IMG/VR virus record: IMGVR_UViG_3300030106_003574
Coordinates: 10,717 to 38,119 of that record
DNA length: 27,403 nucleotides
Reading direction: 5' to 3' (one strand)
DNA from: a virus
Positions 528 through 27,403 of this stretch are shown in pieces. The notes beneath the pieces are model-generated. The model was not told the origin of the DNA. It did no database searches and was given only the letters and a program-made list of their open reading frames with translations. The translations under genes and the position numbers were made by a program. Every line of letters begins with the position of its first letter. The stretch's first letter is position 1.

Positions 528-1130
528 TTATCTTTTCAGAAAAGATAATTTTTTTTGTATGTCATCAATCGTGCCTGTGTCGGGTCTCCAATATTCAAGT
601 GGGGTAAGATAATTACTCATTCCTGGCAGTTCTAACTCCAAAGACCTTAATCGTGTGAGATTAACATCTCTGACATTATTTCTCTTACCTGAAATTGTCC
701 ATCTGATATCGTAATATAGATATAAAGAACTCTGATTATTAAAGTCATCCTCAGATATTTCGAATATTTGTGCTTTATCATCATTCCCTTTTTTACAAAA
801 ATATCTTCTTATCGTACCAACATCATAATCATTTTTAGTTGGTAAATTTTTAGATGGTTTAGGATATGGTTCCCTTTCTAAATTAGCTACATCTTGATAC
901 CTGACAAATAAATCTGTCTCCTCAACCTTTTCAATTCGTCTTCGATTCCCAACATCGCTTGGTAGACCTGTCAAATAAACTTTATCCTTATTATTTGTAT
1001 AATAAATCGTGTATCGCTGATTAGCTTGTACAAAACCCTCGGTATCGTAATACCTAAACTCACGGAAGCCTGTTGTATTATTTCCAATCAATCTTTCCGT
1101 ATTTTCAGTAATCTGTTCATACTTACTCAT
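528..1130 (-). CDS. Conserved-type hypothetical protein next to the baseplate hub (200 aa)
   Basis: I do not recognise the family. The protein is charged and rich in Tyr, Asn and Arg, with no signal peptide or membrane segment. Its ATG overlaps the last 8 bases of the hub-like gene, so the two are probably translationally coupled; the leader is a run of A with no good Shine-Dalgarno. Its place at the end of the tail/baseplate run suggests a small baseplate or tail-completion protein. It contains the words YYDIRW and LTPLEYWRPDTGTIDDIQ, the latter close to the C-terminus. It could equally be a non-structural late protein. The coding call is strong because of length, coupling and strand; the function is unknown. 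Confidence 0.75.
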   Translation of the reverse strand: MSKYEQITENTERLIGNNTTGFREFRYYDTEGFVQANQRYTIYYTNNKDKVYLTGLPSDVGNRRRIEKVEETDLFVRYQDVANLEREPYPKPSKNLPTKNDYDVGTIRRYFCKKGNDDKAQIFEISEDDFNNQSSLYLYYDIRWTISGKRNNVRDVNLTRLRSLELELPGMSNYLTPLEYWRPDTGTIDDIQKKLSFLKR

Positions 1131-4011
1131 TTTTTTCTGCCTCTTGTTCTGCTTTTATTTGGTCTGCTAACTGATTGACCTTTTCTTGTACCGTTGTTTG
1201 TTTTCCCTTTTTATTATTCCAAGCTTTATTCGCGTCCTCAACTTCTTTGTTTATCTTTTTCTTTAACTCAGTTGCAGTTGAGGCTTTTTGTGCTTTATTA
1301 AATTGCTCGAGCACATCAGCTTTCTCCACCTCTTGAATCTCGGTCTTATAGATGTTCTTAAAAGTAGTTCTCATCTTTCCACCTATCGTTGTCGTCCATT
1401 GACTAGAATCGACGGTGTGATTTACCGAGAATATCTGAAATAAAGCCTCGTCTTGATACCTTTTTGGTAGGTAAGTAGAGTGAAAAGATTGAAAAGGAAG
1501 TATCCCACCGATACCGTCGATTGATAACTCTATTTCGATTGGTAATAATAAGGGTTTGTCCAATTCACTTGTTTTAGTTTTTACCGTTCTTGTTGAATAG
1601 GTTGTATTATAAACTATGCTGTCTATAAATTCTTGTTTCATCCTTCCATTATCATCAAACTTAGCTGAGTATAATTGTTGAAAATCAGATAGTCCACCAA
1701 ATTTTTCTGGCTTGAGTTTTTTATCACCCGCTACAATATCTCTTAGTAATTTTTTTCGAACATCAGGCTCTAAACTACTTAGTAGTGGTGGTGGTAAAGA
1801 ATTATTGATATCCTCATCTAAAAAAGTATTTAAACGACCTGCGCTAGCAGCGTTTATTTCTTTGTCCTTTTCCTCTTTTATTTCTTTACTTCTTTTATCA
1901 ACCAAGTCACGTGTCTTTTCATCTGTAAAATAATCCTTGAGACTTATCTGTAAGTTATCACCTTTATTTCGAAGACCACCTCTATCATATTCTAACTCAG
2001 AATCAACACCATACTTCTCAATGTTTGGATTGTGAAAAACAATCTGTAGATTTTCTAAATCACCACCATCGTTTTGACTTTTACCCATACCACCTGCTCC
2101 TTGTGCTCCCTCATCATTAGCCTCATTCTCAACCGCACCTTGTGTGTCAATTTTTGGTGCGTTAGCACCATACATCACGGATATCGCCACACTATTTGGT
2201 ATTGTGCAACTAACGTTTTGGTCTTTCACTATTGAATCGTGTTGCCAAACTGGAAAAAAGAAGACGCCATTATTGTCTACCCTATTTTCTGCCTTATTGT
2301 AAATACTTCTATTTAAAGGTTGATTTAGGAGTGGTTTCGATGGTTTAGATGGTATCGGTTTTTCAGTCGCAAAACCATCGACAACTCTAATTCTATGTGA
2401 TTGAACCCTATCTGGTTGTAGTTGAAAATTCCAAAAACCTATATCCTCGTTGAGTATACCAAACATCCTTGATAAGGCCTCGTATGTTGATAGAGATTCA
2501 GCTCCAAATCCCTCTTTAACACCGAAAGCCTCTTTAATTACATCCGTGTGTATCAACATATTTCTGAAAACACCTCTATCTGCCCGTGGTTTACTTAAGA
2601 TGGTGTCTGGTATGGTTGCGAAGTCATAATCCTGAGAATTAAACGGACTAAAGTTATTTAAATCGTTTACAATACCCGCTAATTCGGTTAATTTTGCGTC
2701 ATCACCCTTTAAATTTTTTAGTAACGCTTTTAAATCGGCTCTCTCTTGTTCTTCTGCGGTAAAAACATTTGCAAAATCGCTTGAGGACAATGTAAAAAAT
2801 TTACCTGGTAAAATATACTTGAATGGGTTTACTGTTTGAAACTCCTCATGGTCTTTAATTAGGGTTGGTTCGTATCTATCCCCTAAAAAATCATCTACAT
2901 AATTCACCGAACGAATCTGAGACTTTTCAATACCTTTCCCACCAATTACAGTCTCAAACTTTGATAATATATTGTCTTCAAACCAACCCCATCTGACCCA
3001 AACGTTATTTTTTGTTTTCTTACCGTTCTTCTGAATGATAAATGAGTCCTCAACCCAAATATAATTACCAACGTCGTTTACGCCTTCTCTGGCTCTATCA
3101 GCTGTTATTCTTGAACCTGGTCGTCTTACCTGCTCATACAGATACCCATTCAGTAAAAACACAACGTTTTTTAATGTGACATCAGATGGTGTGATATTCT
3201 CGTTATCACTTTCTGTCTTTTTCTTTAAGTCATCAGCGGTCTCACCCTTTTTTACACCCAAGCGAACTGTCATGTTTGTTGCTCCCTTAGCCGGCGTTGG
3301 TTTCTTTAGAAAATCAACCCCAATGCTTGATAACGTGGTGGTGCAATCAAAACCCCCATCCGACCTTGTATTGAATTCGAAGTTCTTAACGATACCGACA
3401 ACCATGTCAATATCACCCTTTGCGTTTTGGATAACCTTTCTATTATTCTGATAAGCTGATTTTCTTATACCACTCGGCCCTATGAAACCTCTAACGTTTT
3501 GTAATCCTTTATTACCATACACCCAACCCCATTCTACACACACGGTCTTACCAACCGATAAGAAATGTGGGGTTAATCTATCAATATCATCAAATGACCA
3601 ACAAGTCCAATTCACAGTTGCTTGTCGTAAAGCTTTGTTACCACCAAGAAATTGTGCATCAAGGGATTTGATACCCGGCATGGGTCTTCTAAATTTATTT
3701 TCTCCAACAGGATTTAACTTTAATAAATCATCTTGAGAAAAATATGGTCTTGGCCCATAAATTTCATCATAACCTGCAGCTGTGTCAGAGCCGTTTACTA
3801 ATTCACCACCCATTAGAATTACGGGTTCGTTGAGGCCGGATGTCATCCTAATAAATGTACTTCGTGTGGCTAATTTATCGAGTGATAAACCATCTTGACC
3901 ACCTATGGTAAGAGTCGAATTTGGGCTATTTCCCTCACGACCTAATATTCTCATTTTTTGAAAAAGTCTAAGTTGAATTTCTCTATCGATTGGTTCTAAA
4001 AATTCGGACAT
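1123..4011 (-). CDS. Large baseplate hub-like structural protein (962 aa)
   Basis: Probably the central hub of the baseplate, which joins tail tube to spike. The evidence is mainly order: tape measure, tube cap, LysM protein, then this gene, as in many contractile tails (compare P2 U-X-D). The C-terminal part (about residues 820-900) contains LPIEIELSIDGIGGILPFQS and later FSVNHTVDSSQWTTTIGGKM, which resembles the closing beta-barrel domain of gpD/gp27-like hubs. The N-terminal part has a conserved-looking FRRPMPGIKSLDAQFLGG and VCVEWGWVYG. A low-complexity stretch (EGAQGAGGMG) lies near residue 635. The last ~60 residues are highly charged and probably coiled coil. It is far longer than T4 gp27 (about 390 aa), so extra domains are inserted. 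Its ATG overlaps the stop of the LysM gene, with a GGAGG-like site inside that gene. No lysozyme domain is visible. The alternative is another large baseplate protein. Confidence 0.6.
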   Translation of the reverse strand: MSEFLEPIDREIQLRLFQKMRILGREGNSPNSTLTIGGQDGLSLDKLATRSTFIRMTSGLNEPVILMGGELVNGSDTAAGYDEIYGPRPYFSQDDLLKLNPVGENKFRRPMPGIKSLDAQFLGGNKALRQATVNWTCWSFDDIDRLTPHFLSVGKTVCVEWGWVYGNKGLQNVRGFIGPSGIRKSAYQNNRKVIQNAKGDIDMVVGIVKNFEFNTRSDGGFDCTTTLSSIGVDFLKKPTPAKGATNMTVRLGVKKGETADDLKKKTESDNENITPSDVTLKNVVFLLNGYLYEQVRRPGSRITADRAREGVNDVGNYIWVEDSFIIQKNGKKTKNNVWVRWGWFEDNILSKFETVIGGKGIEKSQIRSVNYVDDFLGDRYEPTLIKDHEEFQTVNPFKYILPGKFFTLSSSDFANVFTAEEQERADLKALLKNLKGDDAKLTELAGIVNDLNNFSPFNSQDYDFATIPDTILSKPRADRGVFRNMLIHTDVIKEAFGVKEGFGAESLSTYEALSRMFGILNEDIGFWNFQLQPDRVQSHRIRVVDGFATEKPIPSKPSKPLLNQPLNRSIYNKAENRVDNNGVFFFPVWQHDSIVKDQNVSCTIPNSVAISVMYGANAPKIDTQGAVENEANDEGAQGAGGMGKSQNDGGDLENLQIVFHNPNIEKYGVDSELEYDRGGLRNKGDNLQISLKDYFTDEKTRDLVDKRSKEIKEEKDKEINAASAGRLNTFLDEDINNSLPPPLLSSLEPDVRKKLLRDIVAGDKKLKPEKFGGLSDFQQLYSAKFDDNGRMKQEFIDSIVYNTTYSTRTVKTKTSELDKPLLLPIEIELSIDGIGGILPFQSFHSTYLPKRYQDEALFQIFSVNHTVDSSQWTTTIGGKMRTTFKNIYKTEIQEVEKADVLEQFNKAQKASTATELKKKINKEVEDANKAWNNKKGKQTTVQEKVNQLADQIKAEQEAEKNE

Positions 4012-4379
4012 TAGTAACCGCCTCCACCACCAGCGGCTCCTCCTCCTCCACCTGTCGAGCCACCGCTTACAGATGATGTTGAATCATCACTCTCGTTTAT
4101 GTCCTCAAAATCATCGATTATTTTTGTTATATTACCTGGTATCCTAATCAGTTCTCCAGCCTTAAGAGCTATCTTTCCCCTTATACCGTTTGATTTAGCC
4201 AATACCCACCATAGCTTTGTATCGCCATAATATTCATTCGCTAAGGAGTCCAACCTTGAACCCTCTTTAGCTAAAATAAAAGTATCGGAGTCCGATATTG
4301 GTATGCTTGGATAAAAGGTCGTTGAATATACCCGTAGACCCTCTTTAGATTTTTTGACTTTAGTATTCCTATATCTCAT
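4011..4379 (-). CDS. LysM-domain baseplate/tail protein (122 aa)
   Basis: A small tail protein with one LysM domain at about residues 32-83: DTFILAKEGSRLDSLANEYY, then GDTKLWWVLAKSNGI and a closing GELIRIPGN. The 'LAxxYYGDxxLWWVLAxxN' pattern is the form found in phage tail LysM proteins (T4 gp53 in the wedge, P2 gpX). In phages this fold packs against baseplate or hub rather than digesting cell wall. After an acidic linker the protein ends in a Gly-rich tail (residues 106-122) almost without other residues, which is unusual and probably flexible. Its start overlaps the stop of the tube-cap gene (TAATG), and its own stop overlaps the hub start, so three genes are coupled. The purine-rich DNA of the Gly tail also supplies the ribosome site of the hub gene. 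Confidence 0.75.
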   Translation of the reverse strand: MRYRNTKVKKSKEGLRVYSTTFYPSIPISDSDTFILAKEGSRLDSLANEYYGDTKLWWVLAKSNGIRGKIALKAGELIRIPGNITKIIDDFEDINESDDSTSSVSGGSTGGGGGAAGGGGGY

Positions 4380-6334
4380 TATAAGTTACTCAATAAACGT
4401 GATTTCAAATTCCCAGCGAGTTTATTAGGGTCAACCCTATTAGCAGCTTCACTCAATATTGCTCCTCCTAAATTAGATAAAAAGTCTGGCGATTCGACTT
4501 CATAAACCTCTTCACCTATCCACTCAGCTTCATAATGTTTCTGCTTGCTACTCGGTAATCTGTCCCCTATGTATGTAAATGAACAATTAGCTTGTATGTA
4601 TTTTGGTAACTTTGCGAATGTTGTCTCATAAGTGCCTGTATCTTGAACGGTGTAGGTAAGTGAGGAAATATAGCCTGACGTGTTCTTATACATATCACCG
4701 ATTGTTAGCTTAGCGAAAGGTGCTATCATACCAAGACCACCGCCTGCACCAGTTGACTCATAACTTGGATAACAAAGACCAGCCAAGTAATTCATCTTAG
4801 ACCAAAGTGTAATCATTTCCCTATCACTCTGAGGGTAGATGTCGAACGTGAAACTTATCTCACGTTGTGTTCCTTGGTAAACGTAAACACTATCTGGTCT
4901 ACCAACATATCTTTCTGAAGAATACTCAGGTGAAAAAGTATCTGTAATTCCACTTAATAAAGCTCTAAAAACTATCCTTTTTTGATTAACGACATCATAA
5001 AAACTGAAAGGTATAAAATCAATATATTCATATGATGTTCCTTCAAATGAATCCGAACCATAGGGAATAAGGTTGAGTAAGTCAGCACCTCTATTTAAAA
5101 CGGGCTGTCTACCTTGTACAGCGATTAAGGATTTTTTATCAAGAATTCCAGTCCCAAACGAAAAAGCTTTCGCGGCATCGGCAACTTGACTCGCGATTGC
5201 CCCAACCCTCTCTTTTAGACCTGATGTATCTATAAATGATGGTGCACTAATGGAAATATTTATATTAGGTTTTGGTATGTTCGGTAACTTCCTACCTATC
5301 GCCTTTAGTCCCCCACCAACAAATGATGCTGCAGCCTGTGCTATTGGGGATAAAGCCTGTGCACCAAACTTTATGACCCTCCTACCTGCTCTTTGTGCTA
5401 AATCTGTTATTTGAGGAGCAATCGTATCTTTTATTGTGTTAATATAAGGTTCTACAAGTTGTCCTAAATCAGGAGTATTTATATTCAATTTTGTTACGCC
5501 TGGAATGCTAGCTAATGATAAAGAGTTATATTTTTGTAGGTTCTCACTCTCCGCTAATGGGCCGGTTGGAATTGCATCAAACGCCTCATTTTTATATCTA
5601 ACCGCACCTATAAATGGATTTGGGTTTCTACGTTTTAAGGTTTGCTGTTTTGCTAAAAAACCAACCCCCTTTGGTGTTAGTAAGAACTTAGCTGTCCTCG
5701 TGAATGAATTTACCGATGCACCAACGAACTCGTTTGGTGACCTACCTAACACTGCGCCAGCGATATTATCAACGATACCACCAGCGGTATCTAAAAATTG
5801 AAGTATGGTGTTATTTTGTGAAAACCTCTCTAAACCATCGAAACCTAATCTATTATCCACTCTTCTAATCACGAAAGGTTGGTCAAATGAAAATTTTGAA
5901 TTATTTCTCAGTCCTAACTCATCATTATTACTAAGTGCCCTACCATATAGGTTTTGTAAAAAATTATCATCAGTATGTAATTTTAAAAGCTCTGAGTTTC
6001 TATCTATAACATATGGTTTACGTGGGTCAAAATTTATGGGTTTATTACCCCTTGAATCAATTATATTATCATTGAATGTCGATGGGTTAGCCCTTTCACC
6101 CCTAAAATTATTTTTTTGAAATGATTGTAACCCTAACTCTTCCCTAATCGGTTTTGCTTTATTAGCTTGAGAATAGTTGAAAGGTGGTACAAAGTCACCT
6201 TTAGAATCCAAAAATTTATTATTTTTCTTCGCATCCGCGGCACTAGTATTCGGTGATTCCTTTTCGCGGTTCCTATCTGGTTGGTCGAAACTGTTAATCT
6301 GTGATAAATCCGATGTTAATTTAACTAATGCCAT
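4379..6334 (-). CDS. Tail-tube cap / tube initiator baseplate protein (gp48/gp54-like, 651 aa)
   Basis: Likely caps the baseplate and starts tube polymerisation. It directly follows the tape measure, the place of T4 genes 48 and 54. The first ~180 residues are polar and probably disordered, rich in Asn, Asp, Lys and Arg. The middle (about 180-420) is helical or Pro/Ile-rich, with an Ala-rich segment. From about residue 430 it looks like a tail-tube fold: IDFIPFSFYDVV, then YVGRPDSVYVYQGTQREISF and a segment with TFDIYPQSDREMITLWSKMN. That pattern of a receptor-like strand pair followed by tube-type beta strands is typical of tube-initiator proteins. Start: ATG two bases after the tape-measure stop, with CGGAG upstream. 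Length is above T4 gp48 (364) and gp54 (320), so this may combine roles. The function is inferred from fold impression and order. Confidence 0.6.
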   Translation of the reverse strand: MALVKLTSDLSQINSFDQPDRNREKESPNTSAADAKKNNKFLDSKGDFVPPFNYSQANKAKPIREELGLQSFQKNNFRGERANPSTFNDNIIDSRGNKPINFDPRKPYVIDRNSELLKLHTDDNFLQNLYGRALSNNDELGLRNNSKFSFDQPFVIRRVDNRLGFDGLERFSQNNTILQFLDTAGGIVDNIAGAVLGRSPNEFVGASVNSFTRTAKFLLTPKGVGFLAKQQTLKRRNPNPFIGAVRYKNEAFDAIPTGPLAESENLQKYNSLSLASIPGVTKLNINTPDLGQLVEPYINTIKDTIAPQITDLAQRAGRRVIKFGAQALSPIAQAAASFVGGGLKAIGRKLPNIPKPNINISISAPSFIDTSGLKERVGAIASQVADAAKAFSFGTGILDKKSLIAVQGRQPVLNRGADLLNLIPYGSDSFEGTSYEYIDFIPFSFYDVVNQKRIVFRALLSGITDTFSPEYSSERYVGRPDSVYVYQGTQREISFTFDIYPQSDREMITLWSKMNYLAGLCYPSYESTGAGGGLGMIAPFAKLTIGDMYKNTSGYISSLTYTVQDTGTYETTFAKLPKYIQANCSFTYIGDRLPSSKQKHYEAEWIGEEVYEVESPDFLSNLGGAILSEAANRVDPNKLAGNLKSRLLSNL

Positions 6335-6336
6335 TA

Positions 6337-7608
6337 TTACTCCGATACAAATCTTGCTACTGTTTCACTTGCTTTTCCACCTCTTTCAGTATTTTTAACG
6401 ACATCAATTGTCGCCGCCAAAATACCCTTTGAAACCTCCTCTTGGGTCATAGCAGCTTGTGCCACACCCGTCGCACCTGCATTAGCGTTATCCCTTACGA
6501 GTCTTGATAACTCTTGTACACTAACACCAACACTATCCGCTAGGGCTTGTCTTTGTATTCTATTCAATTCATTGAATTCTGCTTCACCACCGACCTGTGT
6601 CACCACCTCTTCAAGAGCACCAGCCAAATCATTATTTAATGCTAATTGTCTAGCCCTATCAAGGTTTATCTCCCTACCCAATAATACCGAGGCCTCTAAT
6701 TGACTCTCAATCGATGATTCAAAGTCTAATAATTTATCAGCTATTCCTGTAACGGTTCTGAATTCTATTCCGAGTTTTCTAGCTTGTATTGCCGCTCTAA
6801 TTAAGTTATCACCACCATCATTTATACTTAACGCCACGGCCTCAGCATTTTCAGCTAATTGTCTAAAGACCGCATCTGGTGCTACACCCTCTAATCTTAT
6901 CGCCGCTGACACCGTGCTTAATTGTGCTAATAGTGTTTCTCTACTTGCTGAGGTTACCGATTCTTGTATCGCTAATAAATCAGCTATCTGTGATGTCGTT
7001 GCTCCTGTCACAAGTTGTGCTCTAGCAAGATTGAATACAAATTTACTTGATGCTTGGTCTATACCACCAAATGTCTCTCTAATAGCATTGAAAGAAGTCT
7101 GTGCATCATCCGCCTCTAAACCAAGAACCTGAAGAGCTTTACCAGTGGCTTCAACCCTTAACCTTATTTTAGCTGCTTCGACAGCGCTTACACCAAGACT
7201 TGTTCTTGTCTCAGCTAGGGCTTTATTAATTTTACTTAATAAGGTTAAAACAAATACCAAAGCTGCTCCGATAGCTATGACTGGATTTGCTGCTAATACT
7301 AAATTAAATGTTTTTGCACCAGCGATAAGCTTTTTAAAACCACCTAATTGTGCGGCCACATTCTTTCTGATTATATTTTGCCCTTGAATCGTCTTTAGTT
7401 GTTGTTTAGCAAAATCATTTGAAACGTTTCTTTTTAAGCTTTCTTTTGCTAACAAGTCTTTGTTTATAACAGCAGCGTCTTTGTAAAGACCAAGTTGTTT
7501 AGATAGTAAATCTCCACTTTCCTCTTGGATATCCTTCATCTCTTCTAGCTCATTTTTTAATTTTTGAGCTATATCTAAACGTTCTTGAGTTACCTTTTCA
7601 ATAGACAT
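6337..7608 (-). CDS. Tail tape measure protein (423 aa)
   Basis: Sets tail length and is ejected with the DNA. Seen: an N-terminal coiled-coil region (residues 1-85, rich in Lys, Glu, Leu), a hydrophobic stretch at about 102-125 (VLAANPVIAIGAALVFVLTL) typical of the membrane-active segment of tape measures, then a long Ala/Leu/Gln/Glu-rich helical body. It sits after the chaperone with frameshift and before the tube cap, the diagnostic place. The start overlaps the stop of the 78-aa gene (TAATG), with AGGAAA upstream. At about 0.15 nm per residue it would predict a tail of roughly 60 nm, short compared with T4 (gp29, 590 aa). No peptidase or lysozyme domain is visible. Confidence 0.8.
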   Translation of the reverse strand: MSIEKVTQERLDIAQKLKNELEEMKDIQEESGDLLSKQLGLYKDAAVINKDLLAKESLKRNVSNDFAKQQLKTIQGQNIIRKNVAAQLGGFKKLIAGAKTFNLVLAANPVIAIGAALVFVLTLLSKINKALAETRTSLGVSAVEAAKIRLRVEATGKALQVLGLEADDAQTSFNAIRETFGGIDQASSKFVFNLARAQLVTGATTSQIADLLAIQESVTSASRETLLAQLSTVSAAIRLEGVAPDAVFRQLAENAEAVALSINDGGDNLIRAAIQARKLGIEFRTVTGIADKLLDFESSIESQLEASVLLGREINLDRARQLALNNDLAGALEEVVTQVGGEAEFNELNRIQRQALADSVGVSVQELSRLVRDNANAGATGVAQAAMTQEEVSKGILAATIDVVKNTERGGKASETVARFVSE

Positions 7609-9671: not shown

Positions 9672-12137
9672 TTACTCAGGAAATGAAGCGCCTGTTGGTT
9701 GAACCACGAAGTCTAACACGATAAACTCAGCTGTTCTTGTAGGTTGAATGAATATCTGACCTACCAACTGATTTCTATCAACAACATCCGGCGTGTTATT
9801 CGTGTCATCCATCACCACCCTAAACGCACTCAATCCACTATTAGATTGTACCGACTCTAAGAAAGGATTCACAATATTTAGGAATCTGTTTCTTGTCGCC
9901 TGTGTATTCTGTTCGAATACCAAGAATCTTGATGTAGAAGCGATAAACTTACGTAATCTGATTAATAGTCTTCTAATGTTGATTCTATCTAATGCGGATG
10001 GTTTAGATTGTAATGTTTTCTGTCCAAACACCACCACGTTCTGATTTGGGAATGAAGCGATTGGGTTTATTCTTGCCTCATACAAATCATCACGTTCTGC
10101 GTGGGTTAACCTTGTTTTAGCTTGTAATACATTGGTCAATCCACCCCTTGTTAAACCAGCTGGTGCGAACCACTCATGTGCCACACTATCGTTGAAACTA
10201 TAAACACCAGGTAGAACAGTTGATGGGGGAACCCATACTGGACTATCGGTGCTTGTGTCAACAATCTGTACCCATGGATAGTAGACTGCCGCATAATTCG
10301 TGTCAAGATTGATTATTACATTTTTCACCGTCTCAATCGTGTCACTCCAACCTGTCGCATCCATAATATAAAATGCGTCTGCTCTAGATTCCATCTTTGA
10401 TATCGCGTGGTTTGTTACAGTTGAGTGTAAACCATGTATAACGCCTGGTATAGCTAATAAGTTTATATCTACCTCATCAGGATTAGATATTGTATTTATA
10501 GCCCTCTTAAACGCAACTGAACCACTAGCGGTGGTTGACGAGAGGTCAAATCCTTGTGTATTTGTATTTACAATATCGGTGCCTGTCTTTGAATCAATCG
10601 CTGGATTCTTACCATCAAAACCAAACTGTAAAGGTACAATGAATTTTCTCTGTTGTAGAGCCGAGTTAGTTAACGTTATCGTCTCGGTGCTGTCCGCAAA
10701 TGTTGATACTCCTATTTCTGAAGCTTCAGTTGTTCCAACTTGGTTTTCAAGAGCAAAAATTACATTACTACCTGTAGTAGCTGCTGATGGTATTGGTGAT
10801 AAGTATTGTCTTGATATCTCATTAGAAAAGTCATGTCCGTAGAAGATATTTGGGTCGTACACATTAGCCGAGGTTAACTGATTAGATTGGGTGACTGCCG
10901 TTGGTACGTTTGTTCCACCCGGCACAGGATTTTGTAGCTCTCCATATCCCATAGGAACTAATGCTTTATTCAACTTAAATTGACCATCTTTAACAAGGTT
11001 CTTAAAATCACCAACTCTAATATGCTTACTGATATTTGGAAATGTACCGTACTCAGTCTTTTTACCATTGTCATCAATAATTGAATATCTATCTCCTATT
11101 CTTCTAGCAAAGAAGTTTGGTGATAATGGGTCAAAGGTGAGTTTCTCAAAGTTCTCTAATATCGTATCATCATCAGTGCCATTTGGATTATGAACCCTTA
11201 CCTGTATTGAGAATGTTCCAAAGTCCGAACCTGCAACATCATCTGCTCTGATAATATCTAAAATGGCTATCTTAAATTTAGAGTTAACATCCGTACCATG
11301 ACTTCTTGTATAGACTCTAAATAAATCTTCCCTACCACTTGATAGATTTTGTGATTGAATAAATGGTGTTCTAGCAAATTGAAAGTCTTTATTTCCAGTC
11401 CACGTTGTATCTGAAGCGTCACCACCATCGTCTGTTAGGTTAGTGCCACTCTGAAAATCTAAACCATCATTTGTTATAGCTATAGATGCTGACATAGTGG
11501 ATAGGGAAACACCTGTCTCACTTACAACATCAAACGGTCTTGTTTTAAAATTTCTATAGAGATAAACATCCCCATCGGCACCATTTATTTTTGTTGATAA
11601 TGGATTGGAACTAAAAACCTTACCAACATAGTTATCGACAGTGCTACCTGTATCAAATGATAATGAATATGTTCTTTCGGTTATGTTACTACCACTTACA
11701 ATCAAACTAAATGACGTTGCCGTACTGTTTGTTGCGGTTAGTTTAGATTTTGATAGGTCACCACCACCACTCGAACCGAGTGAGGGTGCCAAGACTGCTA
11801 TTGACTGAGTAAATTCTGAATAACCAGAACCACTACTTGCTATTCTAAGTTCTATCGTATCTGCTACGTATCCTCCGATACCTAACACTCTGACTATTGT
11901 TACCACACCAGCGCTTTTTAAATACTCCTCCGCTGCGTATGGGGTGTAAAATCTTGGGTCTAATGAACCAAATATTTCTTCAAATTCTTGAAAGTTTGTG
12001 ATTTGTGTTGGTGTGAAAGCAGGGCCTTTCTCGGTAGGCCCGATGATAGCTGCACCTATTTCACTTATGCCTTGGGGTAAAAAAGATAAATCCTTTTCTC
12101 TTGTAAATACACCAGGCGAGACGATTCTTTCAGCCAT
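9672..12137 (-). CDS. Contractile tail sheath protein (gp18-like, 821 aa)
   Basis: Contracts to drive the tube through the host envelope. The N-terminus MAERIVSPGVFTREKDLSFL, followed by GAAIIGPTEKGPAFTPTQIT, is classic for phage sheaths, as is FGSLDPRFYTPYAAEEYLKS. The C-terminal domain contains FGQKTLQSKPSALDRINIRR, then LRKFIASTSRFLVFEQNTQA, and ends with QIFIQPTRTAEFIVLDFVVQ, the inner conserved domain that binds the tube. The middle (about residues 120-560) is Ser/Thr/Asn-rich and variable, making the protein longer than T4 gp18 (659 aa); this is probably the surface-exposed insertion region. ATG is preceded by AGGAGA. It is flanked by terminators on both sides, so it appears to be its own transcription unit, sensible for a protein needed in high copy. 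Confidence 0.93.
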   Translation of the reverse strand: MAERIVSPGVFTREKDLSFLPQGISEIGAAIIGPTEKGPAFTPTQITNFQEFEEIFGSLDPRFYTPYAAEEYLKSAGVVTIVRVLGIGGYVADTIELRIASSGSGYSEFTQSIAVLAPSLGSSGGGDLSKSKLTATNSTATSFSLIVSGSNITERTYSLSFDTGSTVDNYVGKVFSSNPLSTKINGADGDVYLYRNFKTRPFDVVSETGVSLSTMSASIAITNDGLDFQSGTNLTDDGGDASDTTWTGNKDFQFARTPFIQSQNLSSGREDLFRVYTRSHGTDVNSKFKIAILDIIRADDVAGSDFGTFSIQVRVHNPNGTDDDTILENFEKLTFDPLSPNFFARRIGDRYSIIDDNGKKTEYGTFPNISKHIRVGDFKNLVKDGQFKLNKALVPMGYGELQNPVPGGTNVPTAVTQSNQLTSANVYDPNIFYGHDFSNEISRQYLSPIPSAATTGSNVIFALENQVGTTEASEIGVSTFADSTETITLTNSALQQRKFIVPLQFGFDGKNPAIDSKTGTDIVNTNTQGFDLSSTTASGSVAFKRAINTISNPDEVDINLLAIPGVIHGLHSTVTNHAISKMESRADAFYIMDATGWSDTIETVKNVIINLDTNYAAVYYPWVQIVDTSTDSPVWVPPSTVLPGVYSFNDSVAHEWFAPAGLTRGGLTNVLQAKTRLTHAERDDLYEARINPIASFPNQNVVVFGQKTLQSKPSALDRINIRRLLIRLRKFIASTSRFLVFEQNTQATRNRFLNIVNPFLESVQSNSGLSAFRVVMDDTNNTPDVVDRNQLVGQIFIQPTRTAEFIVLDFVVQPTGASFPE

Positions 12138-24499: not shown

Positions 24500-24507
24500 A
24501 TAAATAT
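24500..24507 (-). promoter_or_regulatory. Intergenic ATATTTAT motif upstream of the 112-aa gene
   Basis: The coding strand reads TAATATTTATAG, with TAA the stop of the first fibre. It ends 18 bases before the ATG. Confidence 0.45.
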
Positions 24508-27403
24508 TATCCTAACGCAATTGATAATGCTATTATGTCACCATCCAACGTGTCTAATTTTGTTGCCACCGAAGAGCTAAATGTTGTTAGTGATTCTATA
24601 CTCATACCACCAACTTGAACCTCACCAAAGGAGCCGGTTGAGGTAGCCGAACCACTTATGTTACCGCTTGGGTTAACCACCGAACCACTTATATCAGCGG
24701 CTATCTGAGCAGATGAACTTATTACAGAACCCTCAGCCTCACCCTCCTCCGAGGTGATTCTTGATGCGAGACTTGCTGAGACCGCATTAAATGAACCGCT
24801 TATCGTGGTTCTATCTAAACTTCTAATCACATCAGCGTTATCACCAAGTGAACCACTAATGTCTGCAGCTATTTGAGCTGATGAACTTACGACCGAACCC
24901 TCAGCCTCACCCTCTTCAGCTGTCAATCTCGATGATATGCTTTCTGATACCGAGGTGAAAGAACCACTAATTGTATCTCTTGTTAGGGTTCTGATTACAG
25001 CTGCGTTAGAACCTAATGAACCGCTTATATCAGCTGCTAGTTGAGCTGAGCCAGATACTAAGGTTTCTCCTAATTCATCCTCGGCGGTGGTTATCCTTGA
25101 CGCTAGACTCGAACTTGTGCTTGTAAAAGAACCACTAATCGTATCCCTTGTTAAGGTTCTAATTACAGCCGCATTAGCTCCAAGTGAACCACTTATGTCA
25201 TCAGCTAATTGTGCCGATGAGCTAACAACGGAACCCTCTGCCTCAGCTTCCTCCGCAGTAATTCTTGAAGCCAGACTTGAGGATACCGAAGTAAACGAAC
25301 CACTAATTGTTGTTCTATCTAAACTTCTGATGACATCAGCATTTGAACCTAATGAACCACTTATATCAGCTGCTAATTGAGCTGAACTTGAAACTAATGT
25401 ATTTTCTAACTCATCTTCTGCTATCGTTATTCTCGATGCTAAACTTGAGCTTGTGGTTGTAAATGAGCCACTAATGGTGTCCCTTGTTAATGTTCTTATT
25501 ACGCTAGCATTGGAACCCAAGGAACCGCTAATATCTGCCGCCAGTTGTGCTGAACTTGTGACAACATTAGCTACCTTAGCCCCTAAATGTTCTTTTGAGA
25601 ATGAACCGCTTATGTCGGCTGAAATCTGTGCTGAACTTGATAAAGCTCCGACAAAAGTTCCCTCAAAACTATCTGCCGACATGCTACCTGTGGTGTTCAC
25701 AGAGCCAGTAATATTATGGACATCATCCATACTATTACCAAGCTTAGTAGAACCACTTGTGAATAGTATTGATGCTGATTCAAATGCGGTGTGTACCTCT
25801 TGTGCGGTCAAGGTGCCTGTTACAGTAACATCTCCTATTGTGGTCACACCAGAAACTTGTAGGTTATCATCAATTACGACTGTTCCACCAGCGGAATCTA
25901 ATGTAAGATTACCAGCGGATGTATCAACCTCACTAGCCGCTGTAACACCCACCTGTATATTACCTAAAGTAGAACCACCAGATATATCACCCATATAGGA
26001 TTTTAATCTTGACATCGTGGCTTTTCTATTTGTACCACCAGCTCCGTCATCTAAAATAAATAAATCAGCATCAACAATCGCCGCACCAATATCATCAGCA
26101 CCATCTATATCAATTTGGGTTATATCAAAAGTTGTTAATCGGGTGGATAGTGATGCACTTAGAGCGGTTGATGAACCACTTATGTCGGTTGCTATCTGTG
26201 CCGAGCTGGTGACAACGTTTGCTACTTTATCACCTAAATGTTCTTTTGAGAATGAACCGCTTATATCTGCGGCTATTTGAGCAGATGAGCTAACGACTGA
26301 ACCCTCAGCTTCACTTTCCTCAGCGGTCAGTCTTGATGCTATACTCTCTGAAACAGCCGTGAATGAACCACTAATAGTTGTCCTATCTAAACTCCTAATG
26401 ACCGCTGCGTTATCACCAAGTGAACCGCTTATATCAGCTGCTAATTGAGCCGAACCACTTACTAAAGTCCTAAATCCATTTATGTCCTGCACCAATGCAT
26501 TTTGACCTGTGTGTATCGCCCATCCCATATAACCATGAGAAGAACATTGGTAGTAAATTATCTGAGGACTATCCTTGTCAATCAATAATGTGATTACGTT
26601 ACCATCCACCGAGACGTGAGTCGATGGATTATATTGGGTCGTCTTAGCCGCATCAAAATAAAATCTTATTGGGTGTGATGTCGCTCCACTATAATCAAAC
26701 TTGTAATAACCCTCTGTCAAATATAAGAAAGGGGTTTCAACACCATCAATAATATAACCTTGACTCGAACCAGAATCCTTATAAGGATGGTTTGATGTTT
26801 TTGTTGCTGCTGTTGCTGTAAATGTGTGAGCGCTTGCAGCTGAACTTAACTTACCCTCTGCTAATCTAGCTAAATAATTAAAACCTTGTACTGGCTCTCT
26901 TCCTAACTCTATCTTTCCTGTGGTCGTTAGGGAACCAGCTAAACTCACGTCGTCGTTAAAATCTATTGTCGCTCCACCAGTCGTTGAAACAAAAGCATCA
27001 GCCGATACTGTACCACCAGCTTCAACCCTACCAAATGAACCAGTTGAGGTAGCCGAACCACTTATGTTGACAGTTGGATTTGCGATTGAACCGCTTATGT
27101 CGTCAGCTATTTGTGCGGATGAGCTAATGACTGAACCTTCAGCTTCATCTTCCTCTAATGTCAACCTTAGAGCCAGACTTTCAGAAACGGATGTAAAAGA
27201 ACCACTAACAGCATCAGCTATTTGTGCAGAACCTGATAATGCACCATTGAAAATTCCATTAAATTCATTTGCTGTTATATCACCACTTGCACTTATGTTT
27301 CCACTTGCAGTTATATGTCCACCTGTGGAAATTCTTAATCTTTCTTCACCAGAAGTATGAAAACTAATCGTATCAACATCAGGAAATCTTATCTTTGTAT
27401 TTG
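24507..27403 (-). CDS. Long repeat fibre with cupredoxin-like domain (5' end outside window, 965 aa visible)
   Basis: The frame is open to the window edge; the TTG at 27164 is internal, since in-frame fibre-like sequence (TKIRFPDVDTISFHTSGEER) lies upstream. Visible order: fibre repeat; SSAQ repeats; a domain at about 190-300 with LYLTEGYYKFDYSGATSHPI and YYQCSSHGYMGWAIHTGQ, whose His243, Cys286, His289 and Met292 match type-1 copper ligands; the shared module (about 520-570); then five tandem 56-residue repeats (SSAQLAADISGSLGSNADVI, RSLDRTTISGSF, SLASRITAEEAEAEGSVV). It ends with no S74 or G2 chaperone, just SVATKLDTLDGDIIALSIAL. Probably a trimeric, partly coiled-coil stalk protein. No enzyme motif is seen. 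Confidence 0.8.
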   Translation of the reverse strand, partial: NTKIRFPDVDTISFHTSGEERLRISTGGHITASGNISASGDITANEFNGIFNGALSGSAQIADAVSGSFTSVSESLALRLTLEEDEAEGSVISSSAQIADDISGSIANPTVNISGSATSTGSFGRVEAGGTVSADAFVSTTGGATIDFNDDVSLAGSLTTTGKIELGREPVQGFNYLARLAEGKLSSAASAHTFTATAATKTSNHPYKDSGSSQGYIIDGVETPFLYLTEGYYKFDYSGATSHPIRFYFDAAKTTQYNPSTHVSVDGNVITLLIDKDSPQIIYYQCSSHGYMGWAIHTGQNALVQDINGFRTLVSGSAQLAADISGSLGDNAAVIRSLDRTTISGSFTAVSESIASRLTAEESEAEGSVVSSSAQIAADISGSFSKEHLGDKVANVVTSSAQIATDISGSSTALSASLSTRLTTFDITQIDIDGADDIGAAIVDADLFILDDGAGGTNRKATMSRLKSYMGDISGGSTLGNIQVGVTAASEVDTSAGNLTLDSAGGTVVIDDNLQVSGVTTIGDVTVTGTLTAQEVHTAFESASILFTSGSTKLGNSMDDVHNITGSVNTTGSMSADSFEGTFVGALSSSAQISADISGSFSKEHLGAKVANVVTSSAQLAADISGSLGSNASVIRTLTRDTISGSFTTTSSSLASRITIAEDELENTLVSSSAQLAADISGSLGSNADVIRSLDRTTISGSFTSVSSSLASRITAEEAEAEGSVVSSSAQLADDISGSLGANAAVIRTLTRDTISGSFTSTSSSLASRITTAEDELGETLVSGSAQLAADISGSLGSNAAVIRTLTRDTISGSFTSVSESISSRLTAEEGEAEGSVVSSSAQIAADISGSLGDNADVIRSLDRTTISGSFNAVSASLASRITSEEGEAEGSVISSSAQIAADISGSVVNPSGNISGSATSTGSFGEVQVGGMSIESLTTFSSSVATKLDTLDGDIIALSIALG
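24690..25560 (-). repeat. Tandem 56-codon (168-base) repeats, about five copies
   Basis: Each unit runs from SSAQ(L/I)A to EGSVV or ENTLV. Two subtypes occur (SLDRTTISGS with EAEGSV ends, and TLTRDTISGS with ELENTL ends) in mixed order. Copies differ at many silent sites. Confidence 0.8.
25687..25830 (-). repeat. Shared fibre module, most diverged copy
   Basis: Encodes VTGTLTAQEVHTAFESASIL and FTSGSTKLGNSMDDVHNITG. It has lost part of the downstream half found in the other copies. Confidence 0.75.

Follow-up and report, generated by a model that had tools for sequence, protein, structure and literature searches.

A cupredoxin-like domain with a full set of type-1 copper ligands in a marine phage tail fibre

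Introduction

Amicyanin, pseudoazurin, and plastocyanin (PF00127, TIGR02657) are free exported electron carriers and are the closest described counterparts of the domain discussed here. The ligands of a type-1 site occur in the order His, Cys, His, and Met, the last three in one loop, and this is also the arrangement found in the phage domain. The residue that follows the first His is usually Asn in the small blue copper proteins, while in multicopper oxidases Pro can follow the His of the type-1 site.

The hosts of cyanophages are the most abundant photosynthetic organisms on Earth, and for picocyanobacteria copper is both scarce and toxic. It is established that the T4 fibre protein gp37 holds iron by means of HxH motifs, and similar sites have been put forward for the fibres of further marine phages (PMC11705849). 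For this fibre-borne iron, a Trojan Horse hypothesis has been published (PMC11705849). A search of the open-access literature returned no relevant paper on a cupredoxin, on type-1 or plastocyanin-like copper, or on metal binding of this kind in tail fibres, virions, or cyanophages, and no family in Pfam, NCBIfam, or PHROG names the domain described below a cupredoxin.

The fibre gene and its setting

The window analysed here is a stretch of 27,403 nucleotides, positions 10,717 to 38,119 of the virus record IMGVR_UViG_3300030106_003574, which is itself a 38-kb fragment. The features discussed are listed in window coordinates.

24507..27401, minus strand: tail fibre gene, 964 codons visible, the 5' end lost at the contig end
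26490..26891, minus strand: cupredoxin-like domain, visible residues 171-304 with a well-ordered core at about 191-298, from an alignment of 92 relatives and an AF2 model
26673..26675, minus strand: His243, first type-1 copper ligand, in H-P-I-R-F, kept in 92/92 relatives
26544..26546, minus strand: Cys286, thiolate ligand and the sole Cys of the visible chain, from residue counts and alignments
26535..26537, minus strand: His289, second His ligand, from alignments
26526..26528, minus strand: Met292, axial ligand, kept in 91/91 relatives and lying outside the search pattern

The fibre chain is made up of a long array of SAQxAADISGS...TISGSF repeats, each about 56 residues long, that flank the cupredoxin-like domain. 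Searched against PHROG, the whole chain matches the tail fiber protein family phrog_30742 (E=1.6e-10), and the domain alone gives a match at E=2.8e-28. The adjoining genes encode a tail sheath, a baseplate hub, a tail spike, and more fibre families, and because of these neighbours the virus can be placed among the T4-like myoviruses. Repeat shaft, tail gene neighbourhood, and homology to fibre families are all present, as in a phage tail fibre. The same tail gene region also contains three large proteins of 962, 651, and 423 aa (window 1123-4011, 4379-6334, and 6337-7608, minus strand), for which PHROG gave no match at E<0.001.

An identical domain is present on the IMG/VR contig L012, where it is part of a 1092-codon open frame whose start codon is the second residue. 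The domain occupies approximately residues 264-401 of that frame, which places it inside the repeat region. Despite the identical domain, the repeats of the L012 fibre shaft differ from those at 24507-27401 of the window, with an extra segment present and other units replaced. This suggests recombination among the 56-residue repeats.

Ligand residues

The original prediction named H243, C286, H289, and M292 as ligands, with 43 residues from the first His to the Cys, a C-x2-H-x2-M loop, and the first His in H-P-I-R-F, and all of this numbering proved correct. Since the visible chain of 964 residues contains just 1 Cys, 12 His, and 6 Met, the chance expectation of C-x2-H-x2-M within it is approximately 72/964^2 = 8e-5, and a chance occurrence is ruled out by conservation in relatives. 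A disulfide role for Cys286 was also rejected, as the visible chain has no other cysteine; across the family, a disulfide is disfavoured by the presence of a single Cys in 277 of the 282 ligand-complete copies. The sole match to a DNA pattern search for the ligand motif was the known site, and a genome search of the 38-kb record recovered neither a second copy of the domain nor a match to PF00127. The domain has a further histidine, His205 (window 26787-26789, minus strand), which belongs to a KTxxH(R/P)Y motif and is kept in 87/92 relatives.

Fold and homology to blue copper proteins

The AF2 model of the window domain is predicted with a pLDDT of 90.4 and a pTM of 0.85. When this model was compared with the PDB using Foldseek, rusticyanins came first (E=1.2e-3, probability 0.97-0.99), ahead of multicopper oxidase, SO1698, SufI, and nitrite reductases, but the TM-scores to cupredoxins are low (0.33-0.45) and the rmsd is about 8 Å. 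In the model, the first His lies just ahead of a strand, the Cys ends a late strand, and the second His and the Met are in the next loop. The sister domain from gp9-type baseplate proteins is modelled with a pLDDT of 95.6. Cupredoxins make up almost all of the 50 best PDB matches to this model, with TM-scores of up to 0.56 and with amicyanin, plastocyanin, rusticyanin, and copper nitrite reductase among them. Cupredoxins are thus the best solved matches to the predicted fold, and along the strands of the window model the ligands fall where cupredoxins have theirs; together these two observations give indirect support for four ligands that would converge on one metal position. In BFVD, the window model also resembles predicted giant-virus proteins named 'Beta-sandwich protein' from Pithovirus LCPAC302/304 and Marseillevirus LCMAC201/202 (TM 0.63-0.70, identity 20-28%).

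When the sequence of the window domain was searched directly against PDB, Pfam, and NCBIfam, no match was significant. At5g54830-like, the highest-ranking Pfam family, fell under its cut-off, and the window member matched neither the amicyanin family TIGR02657 nor Pfam Copper-bind (PF00127). The best related members also stay under the curated cut-offs, at 0.009 for amicyanin and 0.00044 for Copper-bind, and one gp9-type member from a MAG just reaches 21.2 bits for Copper-bind together with its neighbours. Judged by these profile scores, the domain is not filed as an amicyanin or a plastocyanin, the curated cut-off not being reached.

Profile comparisons provide two routes to the copper proteins. 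The gp9-type profile retrieves amicyanin from PDB sequences at E=0.0039, followed by nitrite reductase, plastocyanin, and pseudoazurin, and cupredoxins account for 20 of the 22 rows. By hhalign, the window-type and gp9-type profiles are related at 99.5%, and the gp9-type profile and bacterial amicyanin/pseudoazurin-like proteins at 93.8%; aligned directly with amicyanin-like proteins, the window type reaches only 41%. The window-type profile alignment pairs the first His and the C-x2-H...M loop with their counterparts in the copper proteins. The second route runs through L121, a frame of 148 codons from the Prochlorococcus single-cell genome AG-418-M08 that begins like a signal peptide. An HMM built from phage sequences only and searched against 3845 ORFs finds L121 at E=2.7e-5 with nearly the whole domain length aligned, whereas the reversed phage HMM has no match in the same 3845 ORFs. 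L121 itself passes Pfam Copper-bind (5.7e-8) and retrieves plastocyanins of related picocyanobacteria (4.7e-6 and weaker), and so at the level of sequence it is an intermediate between the phage domains and plastocyanin. The frame (L121/L337) contains HPFYI...YYVCSPHASFGM. A strong match to this type of cupredoxin was seen in only 1/81 family genomes searched, the other matches being plastocyanins. Because the gp9-type sister subfamily and the L121 intermediate lead to the same proteins, the phage domain can be regarded as homologous to the blue copper proteins. Conservation, fold matches, and profile homology therefore support the proposal that this phage fibre contains a cupredoxin-like domain with all of the type-1 ligands.

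Conservation of the ligand set

Most of the 92 aligned relatives were fetched with the pattern [LI][YH]YQC..H, which covers neither H243 nor M292, and these two residues are kept in 92/92 and 91/91 of the aligned relatives, respectively. A ligand-blind sample was collected using the N-terminal half of the domain, which is free of all four ligands, as the query. The full set was present in 56/56 complete domains from the best 80 matches, two more being cut by contig ends; this sample is fairly close-knit, as it was drawn from those best 80. Among viral copies, all four ligands are found in 151/155 at 90% identity, 56/59 at 70%, and 20/23 clusters at 50%. The C-x2-H-x2-M spacing is constant in all 282 ligand-complete copies, and 272 of them have Pro directly behind the first His.

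The exceptions are extra copies, found in gp7 and in further large structural proteins, together with one copy cut by a contig end. In L103 (gp7 of P-HM2) and in the large structural proteins L102 and L105, most ligands appear to be lost or cannot be aligned. These are second copies, each next to a ligand-complete copy within one protein. A copy that has lost ligands lacks most of the set rather than single residues. As the ligand-poor copies are still recognisable as the same domain, this suggests that the ligands are kept elsewhere for metal and not for folding. The concern that homologues might shed the ligands at random is thus answered by the alignment of 92 relatives, the ligand-blind sample, and the clusters at 50% identity.

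Distribution in phages and cells

A tblastn search with the window domain returned 71 phage records from Synechococcus, Prochlorococcus, Methylophilales, and Pelagibacter phages, annotated mostly as tail fibre or baseplate wedge tail fibre connector. A gp9-type relative used as query returned 341 records, and the fibre copy of Bellamy returned 36, gp7 baseplate proteins among them. The domain occurs in gp7, gp9, spike, and fibre proteins, and its carriers include T4-like Kyanoviridae and an Autographiviridae phage, P-GSP1. Profile scans of IMG/VR with three queries each gave at least 600 matches. The window domain is one member of a domain family that is reused across marine-phage fibres, gp9-type connectors, gp7, and spikes. 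Several matches in cellular genomes resemble phage contigs within MAGs or single-cell genomes and have long fibre-like frames (e.g., L122), and for this reason we do not claim a broad cellular distribution for the phage type.

Proposed role and alternative readings

We consider it fairly likely that the T4-like marine phage fibre carries a cupredoxin-type domain with an amicyanin-length loop and a full type-1 set that serves as a rigid, copper-binding block. The domain would fold in the virion as a rigid unit with one copper per chain, and the metal would pin the Cys-His-Met loop, preserving the shape of the block so that it may offer a face to fibre joints or to the host. Because phage particles are put together in the cytosol, which has little free copper, the metal would be taken up outside the cytoplasm, from seawater, lysate, or the host envelope, with loading probably taking place after lysis or at the envelope. 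In the window-type fibre, the domain lies within the repeat shaft, away from the tip. This position, the unrelated hosts, and the occurrence in baseplates fit a general structural or contact role better than receptor specificity. We infer the structural or adhesive role, the copper occupancy, and the place of loading from these features. The ligand set suggests that marine phage particles probably carry copper on their tails, and that the domain is most likely a virion-borne, copper-binding, non-enzymatic module. Several points speak against the copper reading, namely the low TM-scores, the 41% direct hhalign value, the His-Pro pair, the close-knit sample, and the awkward loading of copper in the cytosol.

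It is possible, if rather unlikely, that the site is intact and binds metal, with zinc, nickel, or iron as the biological metal acting as a structural staple as in other tail fibres. Zinc and iron, unlike copper, are available in the cytosol. HxH iron sites are established in T4 gp37 and have been suggested for the fibres of some marine phages (PMC11705849). However, His2-Cys-Met in a cupredoxin-type domain is the type-1 copper set, and the invariant Met is hard to square with zinc or iron. A reading without any metal is more doubtful still; here, a degenerate cupredoxin would serve as a β-sandwich building block, its four residues persisting through recent descent or packing. The recognisable extra copies that have lost most ligands (L103, L105) would suit such a block, as would the presence of metal-free cupredoxin-type proteins such as SufI among the fold matches of the window model. 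Against this, the descent involved is not recent, since all four ligands are retained in 20 of the 23 clusters formed at 50% identity; the constant loop spacing and the loss of most of the set at a time also speak against it.

Alternatively, the fibre copper might be offered to or exchanged with host envelope proteins or receptors in the manner of a Trojan horse, or might be redox-active at adsorption or injection. The intact ligand set implies redox competence, some relatives infect hosts to which copper is scarce and toxic, and the Trojan-horse idea is in print for iron (PMC11705849). Yet the domain is in the repeat shaft rather than at the fibre tip, it is also found in the baseplate gp7 and gp9 proteins, and it is common to phages of hosts as unrelated as cyanobacteria, Pelagibacter, and Methylophilales, so that we hold this reading to be improbable. 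We know of no partner for such an exchange. In its fullest form, marine phages would have stoichiometric tail copper in a recruited blue-copper domain, would form a pool of copper-binding ligands in the ocean, and would use the metal in attachment or injection through redox change or metal exchange at the envelope, which we likewise think unlikely. If the structural copper block is correct, the conserved copper-type site that cyanophages have in their fibres and baseplates would add a new class to the metal sites of virions and provide a testable cofactor for tail function. The debate over phages as iron ligands would then extend to copper. The assignment also supplies an annotation for a domain that hundreds of deposited genomes list only under tail, structural, or hypothetical proteins.

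Comparison with known systems

Both the fold and the site are already known; what appears undescribed in the open-access literature searched is that they serve as a widespread virion domain with all four ligands kept. The direct homologues of the domain are PHROG 30742 (tail fiber protein) and phrog_677 (baseplate wedge tail fiber protein connector), which are named by their virion role only, without a copper or cupredoxin annotation. The HxH iron-binding fibres, T4 gp37 and that of Alteromonas phage R22Y, share with it a His-based metal site in a tail fibre (PMC11705849), but differ in having His-only ligands, another metal, and another fold. Rusticyanin and the cupredoxin domains of multicopper oxidases and nitrite reductases provide the best solved fold matches, while their loop length differs from that of the phage domain; unlike the multicopper oxidases and nitrite reductases, the phage fibre shows no type-2 or type-3 copper domain. 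Amicyanin, pseudoazurin, and plastocyanin differ from the phage domain in being free carriers rather than part of a virion fibre and in having His-Asn in place of His-Pro, and the window member lies under every curated cut-off for them. They nevertheless share with it the order and type of the ligands, the fold as retrieved by Foldseek, and a P-x-L-x-L-x-x-G-x-T-Y-x-F...H...F pattern ahead of the first His, and amicyanin in addition shares the C-x2-H-x2-M loop.
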